Shown: one piece after another, positions 16,342-37,450 of the stretch
Position numbering within the stretch: position 1 is the first letter of the stretch
Layout of the letters: the number at the start of each line of letters is the position of its first letter
DNA from: a virus
Virus record (IMG/VR): IMGVR_UViG_3300025030_000269
Span: 1-37,540 of that record
Strand: one strand, 5' to 3'
DNA: 37,540 bases
Position numbers and translations under genes: made by a program
Notes under the pieces: generated by a model
Told to the model about the DNA's origin: nothing
Databases searched by the model: none
The model's input: only the letters and a program-made list of their open reading frames with translations

Positions 16342-17277
16342 TTAAATGACGTCGTAGATGAGGTAGCCGCCCTCTGCGCCGACGATGTAGGGCTTGAAGA
16401 TATCGGTGTTACGGATGAGCTGAACTTTGCCGCCTTCGACGTAGGTGTCGACCGTCGGCTGGTTCTTCTTGCCGAAGGTGTAGCCGTAGCTCGGCTCATA
16501 CTCGGTCCGCTCTGCATCGCCGCTCTTCTCGGGGACGTAGGCCATGGTGATGGTGTTGCCCCATACGTCGGTGAGGCCTGCGCCGGCGACTTCGGAGTCG
16601 TACGAGGAGCGGCCGATGATGATGTTTTTCATCTCCACGGCTTCCTTGAAGATGTCGACGGAAACCACGCCTTTCTGGGAAAACTTGATCAGATCGACGA
16701 TCTGCGGATGGCGCTTCAGCTTTTTCCAGACCTGGTACCCGATGACCATGGTATTGGGTTCGGCGCCGATCTTCTGCCGGATGGCGTCCTTGCCGTCGTC
16801 GATGACGCCCAAGGGATCGGAATTGACCTTGTCAGAGAACTTGTCGCCACCGGCCAGGGCGATCTTGTTGCCGGCGGCGTAGTTGGCCGGGTTCTGGGCG
16901 AGGTCGGCGCACTGCTTCTCGCAGCGGATCCGCAGCGCTTTGGTGACAACGTTGGTGGCCCAGCGCTCCAGCGGCAAGACGTTCTCGGCTTCATCGCGCT
17001 CGCGGTAGTCGATGGGGTACTCCAGGTCATGCTCGGTGAGCACGACGTCGATGTCACCGTAGTCCTCGGGGTTGATGCGGTTGGACTTGGCGCGCAGTGC
17101 CCGCTCGGTGGAGTAGATGCGGAACGCTTCCTTGCCGAACTGGGGCAGCTTGCCCGCTTCCTTTTCGACGCGGACCATGGGAAACAGCGCTTCACAGGCG
17201 AGTTCGGGGAAGATGTATCCCCTGGCGAGGGTGGAGAGGATAGGATCTACTATCCTCAGATTGGCTAAACGACTCAT
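16342..17277 (-). CDS. Major capsid protein (probable HK97 fold, not the Mu gpT family)
   Basis: 311 residues. Position after the protease/scaffold gene, a strong AAGGAGG ribosome site and segments such as PNTMVIGYQVWKKLKRHP, KNIIIGRSSYD and the C-terminal DIFKPYIVGAEGGYLI mark it as the major head subunit. These segments are those of a capsid family found in many non-Mu phages; I see no similarity to the Mu gpT start that I remember. The head module therefore seems partly swapped relative to Mu, in line with the DUF2190 gene. HK97 fold is inferred from size and motif order. Confidence 0.78.
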   Translation of the reverse strand: MSRLANLRIVDPILSTLARGYIFPELACEALFPMVRVEKEAGKLPQFGKEAFRIYSTERALRAKSNRINPEDYGDIDVVLTEHDLEYPIDYRERDEAENVLPLERWATNVVTKALRIRCEKQCADLAQNPANYAAGNKIALAGGDKFSDKVNSDPLGVIDDGKDAIRQKIGAEPNTMVIGYQVWKKLKRHPQIVDLIKFSQKGVVSVDIFKEAVEMKNIIIGRSSYDSEVAGAGLTDVWGNTITMAYVPEKSGDAERTEYEPSYGYTFGKKNQPTVDTYVEGGKVQLIRNTDIFKPYIVGAEGGYLIYDVI

Positions 17278-17301: not shown

Positions 17302-17982
17302 TTAATCCTGCTTTTGGACGATGACGAGGGCTTGCTCGTAGGTTTTACCCGGGTTTGCTTCCTGGTACTCCAGGACTTTGTTGTGCAGGCTGAGACGGTC
17401 TTCGTCTGCGTGCTCACCGAAGTCGGCGCTTTGCTGCTTTGTCTTGGGCGCGGCCTTCTCCTTGGTTGCGACCTCGCTGAACTGGACCACGTCGGGGCTT
17501 GCCTTCAGTTCTTCCTGGTAGATATCCAGGGGGCTCTTCATGACCTTGCCGTCGCCTTCGCCGAACTCGACCGGCTCGGCACCGTCCAGCTTCATCATCA
17601 GGGCTACCACGGTGGGCTTCATGGCCGGGGAGATTTTGCAGCGCATCGCCTCCGACTCGCAGAAGGCGTCGAAACCCGCCCGGCGCTGGTCGCTCTGGAT
17701 CTCGGTCAGGGTCTTGACGGCGGTGTTCCGCTCGCCGGTAAGGGTGGCGATCTGTGCGAGTTGACCCTTGACCTGCTCGCCGTAGTTGGCGACCTGCATG
17801 CCGTAGACGGGGTCGCACATCATGCGGCAGGCATCGATGCACTTGTAGCAGACGGTGCATTTGGCCGCGTCGATGACGGCGCCCTTCTCCGGGGTCATGG
17901 TGATCGCGTCGACCGGGCAGCAGGGAATGCAGACGTTCTCGCCGCAGTCGCCGCAAAATGAAGCTCTGTCTTTCACAGCCAT
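17302..17982 (-). CDS. Nested scaffold protein (Mu gpZ type) from internal start, beginning with the ferredoxin-like domain
   Basis: Same frame as the protease gene. The ATG at 17982 has AGGAGG at 17991-17996, 8 bases upstream, a better site than that of the full-length gene. Mu makes its scaffold Z from an internal start in gene I, so a separate product of 226 residues is expected. Here it would begin MAVKDRASF and run straight into the cysteine-rich segment (DNA 17815-17955), followed by the helical, charged scaffold region with QLAQIATLTGERN. The protein would fill the procapsid and be removed by the protease. Whether it binds iron-sulfur clusters is unknown. Confidence 0.7.
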   Translation of the reverse strand: MAVKDRASFCGDCGENVCIPCCPVDAITMTPEKGAVIDAAKCTVCYKCIDACRMMCDPVYGMQVANYGEQVKGQLAQIATLTGERNTAVKTLTEIQSDQRRAGFDAFCESEAMRCKISPAMKPTVVALMMKLDGAEPVEFGEGDGKVMKSPLDIYQEELKASPDVVQFSEVATKEKAAPKTKQQSADFGEHADEDRLSLHNKVLEYQEANPGKTYEQALVIVQKQD

Positions 17983-18447
17983 TGTTTTGGCCTCCTGTTT
18001 TGTTTGTTGGACTTCCATTTCGGCAAAGACGAGGAGGCCGTCCTCCTCGGCAAAGTTGACGTCTTTGAGCCCCTTTACCGCCGGCGGCTGGGCACCCAGA
18101 AAACCGATGTGGCGCAGGTAGTAAACGCCGGGGACCGGGTTCGCGGTATGGCCGGGTGGATAGAATGAGGCGCTGCGCTTCTTGTACTTGCCGTCGTTGA
18201 CCGCTTCGGCAAAGGCGACGTCGATCTGATCGGCATCGGCCATCAGACAGGAGTCGGCAAAGGCAAGGGCCTTGGTCCAGCCCCAGGCGGGGGCGTTGTC
18301 GCTGGGGTGACCGATGACCAGGGGAGCCTCGTGCAGCTGGGGGTCATAGGCTGCAGCGCTGGCGATGAGGTCGGCCTCGGTGAAGCTGATCTCGGCGCCA
18401 CTCATGGCTGTGTGTGTGCCGGGCTTGAATATCTCGAATCTCGTCAT
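17302..18447 (-). CDS. Head maturation protease with scaffold and embedded ferredoxin-like segment (Mu gpI)
   Basis: 381 residues from the ATG at 18447, preceded by GGAGAG; an in-frame ATG 36 bases further upstream lies inside an inverted repeat and is less likely. Residues 1-150 match the Mu I protease family: GHPSDNAPAWGW and a later KRSASFYPP...YLRHIGFLGAQPPAVKGL, which includes the probable catalytic Ser and His. Residues about 165-211 hold ten Cys: C-x2-C-x4-C-x2-CCP-VDAI, then C-x2-C-x2-C-x3-C plus one more. This resembles a 2[4Fe-4S] ferredoxin and is not part of known gpI proteins. Residues 220-381 are helical scaffold. An internal start (17982) with AGGAGG precedes the Cys-rich part. 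Confidence 0.85.
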   Translation of the reverse strand: MTRFEIFKPGTHTAMSGAEISFTEADLIASAAAYDPQLHEAPLVIGHPSDNAPAWGWTKALAFADSCLMADADQIDVAFAEAVNDGKYKKRSASFYPPGHTANPVPGVYYLRHIGFLGAQPPAVKGLKDVNFAEEDGLLVFAEMEVQQTKQEAKTMAVKDRASFCGDCGENVCIPCCPVDAITMTPEKGAVIDAAKCTVCYKCIDACRMMCDPVYGMQVANYGEQVKGQLAQIATLTGERNTAVKTLTEIQSDQRRAGFDAFCESEAMRCKISPAMKPTVVALMMKLDGAEPVEFGEGDGKVMKSPLDIYQEELKASPDVVQFSEVATKEKAAPKTKQQSADFGEHADEDRLSLHNKVLEYQEANPGKTYEQALVIVQKQD

Positions 18448-18462
18448 GCGCTCTCCGTTTCC

Positions 18463-18484
18463 TATGGTGCGTACTCGCACCATA
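18463..18484. promoter_or_regulatory. Perfect 9-bp inverted repeat before the protease/scaffold gene
   Basis: TATGGTGCG (18463-18471) and CGCACCATA (18476-18484) are separated by four bases. It lies 16 bases upstream of the protease start, in the 196-bp spacer where Mu has its late promoter PI. It may be an operator or a transcript stem; no clear promoter elements were recognised. Confidence 0.4.
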
Positions 18485-18643: not shown

Positions 18644-19204
18644 TTAGCTGGCAACATATTCTTCTGCCATCCGGCGCATCTTTTTCAGGTCGCCATTGCC
18701 AAAACTGAGGAACGGCCGGGCCGGTATCTTGATGCTGCCTGCCTTGCCCATGGTGCGCCTGCCGTAGGTCGCCTTGCCTGCCTTGGCGAAGCGGTCGCCG
18801 CCGCCGATCTTGCCGCTTTTGGCCTGGGTGAAGTGCATGATGCGCATACGGGCCGACTGCTTGATGGTGCCGCCGAACTGCTGAATGGCGGCATAGACCA
18901 GGTTGGTGCCGATTTTGGCCGAGTCCCTAGTGTGGTCCGTGACGATGGAGGCTGCGAGCCGACCGCGCAACTGGAGGATCCTCCCCGGCCAGTGTCCTTG
19001 CCGCGTGCGGCTTTTGATGGTCCTGGGGCTAAGCGCTGCCCACTGCGGGCGCCCCTCCTGCTCGAAGTTCTCCTCGACGGCGTCGGCCATCACCCCGGAG
19101 AGGCGGCGCATGAGCGGGGTAAGGTCGTCGCACTCCTTGAGCTTGCGCTTGATCGCCCTCTGCAGTTCGCGGTCGTCTATCTTGACGCTGATCAGGTCTG
19201 CCAT
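18644..19204 (-). CDS. Virion morphogenesis protein (Mu gpG, tail completion type)
   Basis: 186 residues. The pattern of DDLTPLMRRLSGVMADAVEENFEQEGRPQW, then SPRTIKSRTRQGHWPGRILQLRGRLAASI, then a GTNLVYAAIQQFGGTIK segment is the phage virion morphogenesis family (Pfam Phage_tail_S), which includes Mu G and P2 S. It takes part in joining head and tail. It overlaps gene F by 13 bases. In the C-terminal part PARPFLSFG is the conserved end motif. Confidence 0.88.
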   Translation of the reverse strand: MADLISVKIDDRELQRAIKRKLKECDDLTPLMRRLSGVMADAVEENFEQEGRPQWAALSPRTIKSRTRQGHWPGRILQLRGRLAASIVTDHTRDSAKIGTNLVYAAIQQFGGTIKQSARMRIMHFTQAKSGKIGGGDRFAKAGKATYGRRTMGKAGSIKIPARPFLSFGNGDLKKMRRMAEEYVAS

Positions 19205-27934: not shown

Positions 27935-28528
27935 TTATGCGCGCATGGGCATCAGCAGCCCATCGCCTCCGTCCCACTTGAAATATTGCGGCCCCAGTTC
28001 CGATGTCGCCGATACCTTGATACCCTGAAGTTCTCTCAGCATAGTCAGGTAATGGCTAGAGAAGAAAGTCATGCCAACCTGTACCTTTGCGAAGGTCTTC
28101 TTATTTCCAGTGCCATTGCACTCAGAGCAGATTGCATCGTTGCCGAATACCTTACCTTCACCAAAACAGGTGAGGCACTCGCACTCATAGTCATGGAAGT
28201 CATTCCCGACAGTCACCTCGCCTTCACCGTCGCACTCAGGGCAGTTTGATATCTTCCCCCGCCCCTTGCAGATGATGCAGACTTCCGGATCTGGTTGCTT
28301 GAAGTCGGGAATTTCTACCAGAGCAGCATTTGCAGCCGGGAAATCAACGGCATCAAATATCACGACCACCTTTTCATTCAGCGCTTCCCACTCCGGCACA
28401 TCGGTAAGGCGAGGCACCCTGACCAGGATGTGCCCGTTCGTAGCATAGGAATAGTCACCCCAGGAAAAGGGACCGCAGATTTTAGGGTTGTCCGGGTCAG
28501 AAAAGACGCTAAGTTTTTCTTGATTCAT
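27935..28528 (-). CDS. Clamp-like protein with embedded DnaJ-type zinc finger
   Basis: 197 residues. Four C-x2-C-x-G-x-G repeats begin at Cys84, Cys96, Cys118 and Cys134, the DnaJ cysteine-rich pattern. They sit inside a second domain: ATNGHILVRVP at about 29-39 and LLMPMRA at the very C terminus resemble the sliding-clamp (DnaN) strand VATDGHRLA and its end MPMRL. So a clamp-type domain appears to be interrupted by a zinc finger, perhaps acting at phage replication or transposition complexes. No J domain is present. Lower GC than neighbours. The start overlaps the HTH gene's stop (ATGA) and AGGAGG precedes it. Confidence 0.65.
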   Translation of the reverse strand: MNQEKLSVFSDPDNPKICGPFSWGDYSYATNGHILVRVPRLTDVPEWEALNEKVVVIFDAVDFPAANAALVEIPDFKQPDPEVCIICKGRGKISNCPECDGEGEVTVGNDFHDYECECLTCFGEGKVFGNDAICSECNGTGNKKTFAKVQVGMTFFSSHYLTMLRELQGIKVSATSELGPQYFKWDGGDGLLMPMRA

Positions 28529-37302: not shown

Positions 37303-37342
37303 AGTATCAGAAACAAACAGCTTTGCTTTACGCTAAAACAAA

Positions 37343-37450
37343 CACTGCCAAACCACACGCTTTATTACCTGCTGATATCTTGGTTGTGAAGCGTACTGAC
37401 AAACCACGCGCATAATTTACAGTTATCCACAGTTTACTGACAAACCACTC
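37343..37450. repeat. Left end of the prophage (attL) with three transposase-site repeats
   Basis: ACTGCCAAACCACACGC (37344-37360), ACTGACAAACCACGCGC (37395-37411) and ACTGACAAACCACTC (37436-37450) share one consensus, the reverse complement of the core TTTGGCAGTGA found at the other end. Three spaced sites here against two adjacent ones on the right recall the L1-L3 and R1-R2 layout of Mu. The exact left terminus lies between about 37450 and the window end; I could not find a 5-bp target duplication. Confidence 0.7.

Follow-up and report, generated by a model that had tools for sequence, protein, structure and literature searches.

Background

Why should a virus carry a stretch resembling a bacterial ferredoxin within the very protein that scaffolds its head? 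The question arises from a single gene in a virus record of 37,540 bases (IMG/VR record IMGVR_UViG_3300025030_000269), which was analysed over its entire length and is hereafter called the window. A preliminary description of this DNA had noticed ten cysteines within 47 residues of a Mu gpI homologue, had compared them with the 2[4Fe-4S] ferredoxins of bacteria, and had proposed that they might serve as a redox or oxygen sensor for assembly, or be part of a protein inside the virion that passes into the host.

Among phage structural proteins, iron-sulfur clusters are documented in tail tips, as in gpL of Lambda and its homologues, where the function of the cluster is uncharacterised (PMC10721106; the cluster itself is credited in that paper to Tam et al. 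2013). The gpL protein shares with the present case an Fe-S cluster in a structural protein of a phage; it differs in being a tail tip protein and not a scaffold, with one cluster held by four scattered cysteines that are universal in its homologues, and with a motif that is not ferredoxin-like. For head scaffolds no report of an iron-sulfur or ferredoxin domain was found in the part of the literature that was covered. Here we examine the gene, its segment rich in cysteines, its predicted internal start and its relatives, and weigh the roles that such a domain could have.

Results and discussion

The gene and its surroundings

The window harbours a Mu-like gene set, which includes a MuA-type transposase, a MuB-like ATPase, GemA, Mor, terminase and the Mu portal, as well as Mu F-like and G-like proteins, contractile tail genes and a baseplate. 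At its extreme left end (22-57) there are two direct copies of CTATTTGGCAGTGA, 22 bases apart, which may be transposase end sites or mark a junction with host DNA, and near its right end (37340-37450) repeated GACAAACCAC / CCAAACCACACG-like motifs are perhaps operator or transposase sites. An early-region protein (27935-28528, minus strand) contains a zinc-finger stretch of the DnaJ type, CxxCxGxG (E 5.6e-7, sub-threshold), and the one phage protein weakly related to it comes from a Microcystis phage.

The frame of interest matches the profile PHROG 976 'head maturation protease' as a whole protein (residues 11-392, E 5.9e-93), is 35-45% identical to many phage proteases, and stands in a gene order of the Mu type, i.e. 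Phage_Mu_F, Phage_tail_S, I/Z and Phage_cap_E (Table 1). As judged from this profile match its homology to Mu gpI is solid, and the segment indeed lies in frame within a gpI homologue, as had been claimed. Met13, which is preceded by GGAGAG, appears a likelier start of the protease than the first ATG.

Table 1. Position of the I/Z gene, its parts and its neighbours in the window
Feature	Position	Strand	Remarks
Major capsid protein, presumed scaffold partner	16342..17277	-	PF03864 E 7.1e-13; phrog_1005 E 4.6e-102; downstream
Mu gpI/Z-type head maturation protease and scaffold	17302..18483	-	PHROG 976; 393 aa from first ATG
Predicted scaffold Z, 226 aa, residues 168-393, starts MAVKDRASFCGDC	17302..17982	-	internal ATG, strong Shine-Dalgarno
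Long scaffold helix or coiled coil, residues 225-276	17656..17811	-	AlphaFold; pLDDT about 86-97 from residue 231
Dicluster ferredoxin-like domain, residues 177-223	17815..17955	-	ten Cys; dN 0 vs L001
Internal Shine-Dalgarno AGGAGG of the in-frame Z start	17991..17996	-	8 nt spacing; same in L001
Protease core, residues 13-135	18079..18447	-	H59, S104, H125; pLDDT about 85-98 over most
Mu gpG-like virion morphogenesis protein	18644..19204	-	PF05069 E 3.7e-26; upstream

The protease residues are intact: His59, Ser104 and His125 are invariant in 74 of 74 aligned sequences, and Foldseek relates the core weakly to proteases of herpesviruses (E 2.5e-3). Together these suggest that Mu-type protease and herpesvirus assemblin share a Ser-His-His fold, and the three residues would form an assemblin-type triad, with a catalytic role that is suggested by the assemblin-like fold of the model. 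In the herpesvirus assemblin/scaffold system (UL26/UL26.5 type) protease and scaffold are likewise in frame and the scaffold is made from an internal start, so that the in-frame logic is the same, in addition to the weak match of the protease-core fold; the herpesvirus proteins are without a metal domain.

The cysteine-rich segment

The cysteines of the segment occupy positions 177, 180, 185, 188, 189, 209, 212, 215, 219 and 223, and others are found at 79, 275 and 282. Codons 177 to 223, read from 17955 down to 17815, spell the arrangement correctly given in the preliminary description, namely C-x2-C-x4-C-x3-CP-VDAI and then C-x2-C-x2-C-x3-C, a motif that did not arise once when the protein was shuffled 200,000 times. 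Eight of the cysteines fall into two motifs of four with an 18-residue loop between them and are the predicted ligands (C177, C180, C185 and C189; C209, C212, C215 and C219), while C188 and C223 are extra. The comparison with ferredoxins is thereby upheld for a segment of the dicluster type, but not for the classical clostridial pattern, in which C-x2-C-x2-C-x3-C-P occurs twice: the first motif has x4 in place of x2 (C-x2-C-x4-C), and the second ends in CR, with no proline after its last cysteine. The first motif matches that of PsrB/NrfC, and the second, with its CR, that of NuoF-like C-terminal domains.

Similarity to cellular proteins was detected by several routes. The segment matches Fer4_7 (E 0.0024, with 18.8 bits against a curated Pfam cut-off of 27, hence sub-threshold), phrog_16249 'ferredoxin' (E 4e-4) and, in the PDB, RnfB (E 3.5e-4) and the PsrB/NrfC protein 2vpw_B (E 0.005). 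The last alignment is gapless and pairs all eight ligand positions, so that an Fe-S protein of solved structure offers a precedent for the x4 spacing; PsrB/NrfC subunits likewise share the whole first motif, C-x2-C-x4-C-x3-CP, and differ in being multi-repeat electron-transfer subunits of low overall identity to the phage segment. A two-sequence profile matched HydB (E 0.0024), and hhalign aligned NuoF-like C-terminal domains with 98.5% probability and 53% identity over 45 positions. A search of 277 Desulfuromonadia genomes likewise led to NuoF-like proteins, ~550-600 aa in length, whose C-termini are the nearest domains there. The score against one such domain lies 8.2 SD above shuffles in which every cysteine and proline was kept fixed, and the likeness thus exceeds what cysteine spacing gives. 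The NuoF-like/HydB domains of Desulfuromonadia have the same 18-residue loop and CR after the last cysteine; they differ in their first motif, which is C-x2-C-x2-C, and belong to enzyme subunits, whereas the domain described here is part of a scaffold. As far as sequence comparison can tell, the segment and the dicluster 2[4Fe-4S] ferredoxin domains of cells are homologous. NuoF-like proteins as the sole donor are not fixed by the scores, a glycyl-radical activase being nearly equal (121 for NuoF-like domains vs 120).

That the closest domains found belong to NuoF-like and HydB-like subunits could indicate that the domain docks to a redox complex of the host, or competes with host ferredoxin domains, and in this way places the heads or alters the electron flow of the host late in infection. 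We regard this as decidedly unlikely: a ferredoxin in free form is not among the predicted products, the domain being joined to an assembly protein with which the procapsid is filled, and the ancestry is not fixed, glycyl-radical activases scoring about as well.

AlphaFold modelled the domain with a pLDDT of 55 on its own and of about 45-63 within the whole protein, and the domain-only model was set aside because this confidence is too low. Strands are predicted, at this low confidence, at 194-197 and 201-204 and a helix at 213-222, in the order of a ferredoxin repeat, and the first eight Foldseek matches of the domain model are Fe-S proteins or their complexes, none of them significant. From the sequence we consider it quite probable that the domain binds two [4Fe-4S] clusters. 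Alternatively, the cysteines could bind zinc, or one cluster only, as a small structural knuckle whose ferredoxin likeness is ancestral only. The non-classical C-x2-C-x4-C, the missing proline, the two extra cysteines and the sub-threshold Pfam score fit such a knuckle, as does the existence of another cysteine-rich patch ahead of the Z start in a gpI protein from Desulfuromonadia (L179, see below). This alternative is nonetheless unlikely, as the x4 spacing (in PsrB) and the lack of proline (in the CR of NuoF-like proteins) each have a precedent in true Fe-S domains, all eight ligand positions are kept, and the similarity extends well past the cysteines (z 8.2).

The internal start and the scaffold

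An in-frame ATG at 17982, encoding M168, is preceded by a Shine-Dalgarno sequence and lies nine residues ahead of C177; this sequence signal predicts a scaffold Z that begins there. Because the domain follows the internal start, it would be as much a part of scaffold Z as of the protease. The annotations of phages B3 and RcWaterboi likewise contain a nested scaffold start, and KS10 possesses a nested I/Z gene with an annotated internal scaffold start (PMC2628397).

Predicted Z is 226 aa long here against a median of 162 in homologues, whose lengths stem from automatic start choice and are in some cases wrong. The long scaffold helix follows directly after the ferredoxin-like domain. Across homologues, the stretch from protease to Z start varies from 20 to 139 residues, and in most of them this gap is filled by a helical segment of ~45 aa, RxLRxFLIEKFGxExADxxxPxW, which is missing here. 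Its absence is not special to this phage, because two homologues without the Fe-S domain (L187 and L188) lack it as well. Conserved DNA around the internal start was rejected as evidence, the identical run of 47 bases being no longer than in shuffles (1843/5000). In L179 (gpI in the Desulfuromonadia genome G250) a different cysteine-rich patch, CSACGMSCSECTC, is situated just before the internal scaffold start, possibly as an independent metal-binding addition at the same spot.

Compared with the Mu-like I/Z proteins of PHROG 976 (e.g. B3 ORF36/36Z, BcepMu gp32/33 and KS10 gp28/29), the protein thus shows the same full-length homology, gene order and triad, and shares with them the internal in-frame scaffold start, the coiled coil and the C-terminal region. 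It differs in the ferredoxin-like domain after the Z start, in its longer Z, and in lacking the RxLRxFLIEKFGxExADxxxPxW segment of most others.

Distribution, conservation and likely host

One other carrier was found, IMGVR_UViG_3300025030_000270 (hereafter L001), with 89% amino-acid identity over the protein and a domain that is identical in amino acids, in the same place and with the same junctions. L001 is an independent contig with ~14% DNA divergence, and the shared junctions rule out an assembly chimera. The segment had been described as absent from known gpI proteins, and in fact none of the roughly 167 other distinct gpI frames taken from IMG/VR, from phage records and from genomes of bacteria contains it. 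GenBank phage records held no close match to the domain, and motif scans of IMG/VR (for the exact loop spacing, and for the protease motif with a variable gap) revealed no carrier besides L001, their other matches being unrelated frames or an ordinary ferredoxin-type membrane protein. In the likely host phylum, 728 genome look-ups (277 at class level, 395 at phylum level and 56 of another class, in overlapping sets and with no positive control) yielded no carrier and only ordinary ferredoxin domains. A Mu-type I/Z protein with what appears to be a captured ferredoxin-like domain is therefore a combination found here only in two related phages.

Comparison with L001 reveals 9 synonymous and 0 nonsynonymous differences in the 62 codons of residues 168-229, as against 37 synonymous and 42 nonsynonymous ones in residues 230-393 (Fisher p 0.003). 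The protease part has 37 synonymous and 13 nonsynonymous differences; here the contrast with the domain is not significant (p 0.18), and a low dN is also seen outside the domain, the value for the protease core being 0.041. L001 keeps 10 of 10 domain cysteines but only 1 of the 3 others, C79 and C282 being lost; conservation of the cysteines in a homologue with the insert, which the preliminary description had put forward as a check, is thus complete in the sole such homologue. This substitution pattern indicates that the domain is under purifying selection, and we interpret the whole as a rare, selected domain capture and not as an artefact.

It could be argued that the domain is a passenger, inserted by illegitimate recombination and tolerated without any role because scaffold N-termini are variable; only two phages carry it, and the stretch between protease and Z start ranges so widely in homologues. 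Such a passenger has little probability and is already disfavoured: it would hardly show 0 amino-acid changes next to 9 synonymous ones in 62 codons beside a fast-changing scaffold, nor a loss of cysteines elsewhere in the protein with none in the domain.

The closest relatives of both gpI (45%) and capsid (55%) occur in a Desulfuromonadales genome (L090/G003), and for this reason an anaerobic Desulfuromonadales-like bacterium is the likely host. Anoxia is usual for bacteria of the Desulfuromonadales type. A redox or oxygen checkpoint has been proposed in this respect, in which the state of the bound clusters alters scaffold conformation or protease activation, so that heads are assembled or mature only under suitable (anoxic, reduced) conditions. 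The dicluster ferredoxin homology, the fusion of the domain to protease and scaffold alike, and the Desulfuromonadales-type genomes of the nearest gpI and capsid relatives would all agree with such a sensor. We nevertheless think it unlikely: no regulatory partner or precedent was found, most domains of the ferredoxin type carry electrons or have a structural role, and the other Desulfuromonadia prophages that were searched do without the domain. The sensor originally suggested finds no direct support among the evidence gathered here. Likewise improbable is that, in a scaffold with two [4Fe-4S] clusters per subunit and hundreds of them in each immature head, assembly or the activation of the protease depends on the loading of the clusters or on redox state.

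A possible role in head assembly

The reading that we favour, with about an even chance of being correct, is that a captured dicluster domain serves as a structural module of the nested protease/scaffold and is lost on maturation. A Mu-like phage ancestor would have captured a cellular 2[4Fe-4S] ferredoxin domain just behind the internal Z start. The domain would then be present in both products: in protease I, the scarcer one, it would lie in the middle, and in the abundant Z at the N-terminus, where it adjoins the long coiled coil. Two clusters would be loaded in the cytoplasm of the host, probably an anaerobic Desulfuromonadales-like one, and the clustered domain could form a rigid N-terminal knob that associates with itself or binds a partner. 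Such a knob might take over the role that the sequence between protease and coiled coil has elsewhere, namely to organise the oligomers of the scaffold or to link I with Z. The protease would then cut the domain, which would depart together with the scaffold as the head matures. From the location of the domain, a role in the structure or assembly of the scaffold is our best guess; the analysis brought no partner or structural contact to light.

As to its fate, the scaffold of the related phage JBD30 is cleaved and thought to exit through pores in the capsomers (PMC11445458). This precedent speaks against the suggestion that the segment belongs to an internal virion protein, i.e. that it is kept in the capsid and ejected with the DNA, or that the scaffold ferries iron to the host. 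The location of gpI/Z inside the procapsid is established for Mu-like phages and would be in keeping with retention; nothing in this analysis points to it, and we consider the suggestion, which likewise gained no support from the evidence found, very improbable.

Conclusions

The gene illustrates that a cellular domain can enter exactly behind an internal scaffold start and leave the nested protease/scaffold gene unbroken. If confirmed, it would offer an accessible system in which to study why a virus puts a metal cofactor into a protein that is made to be destroyed, and in which it could be asked whether head assembly is coupled to the redox or iron state of the host.
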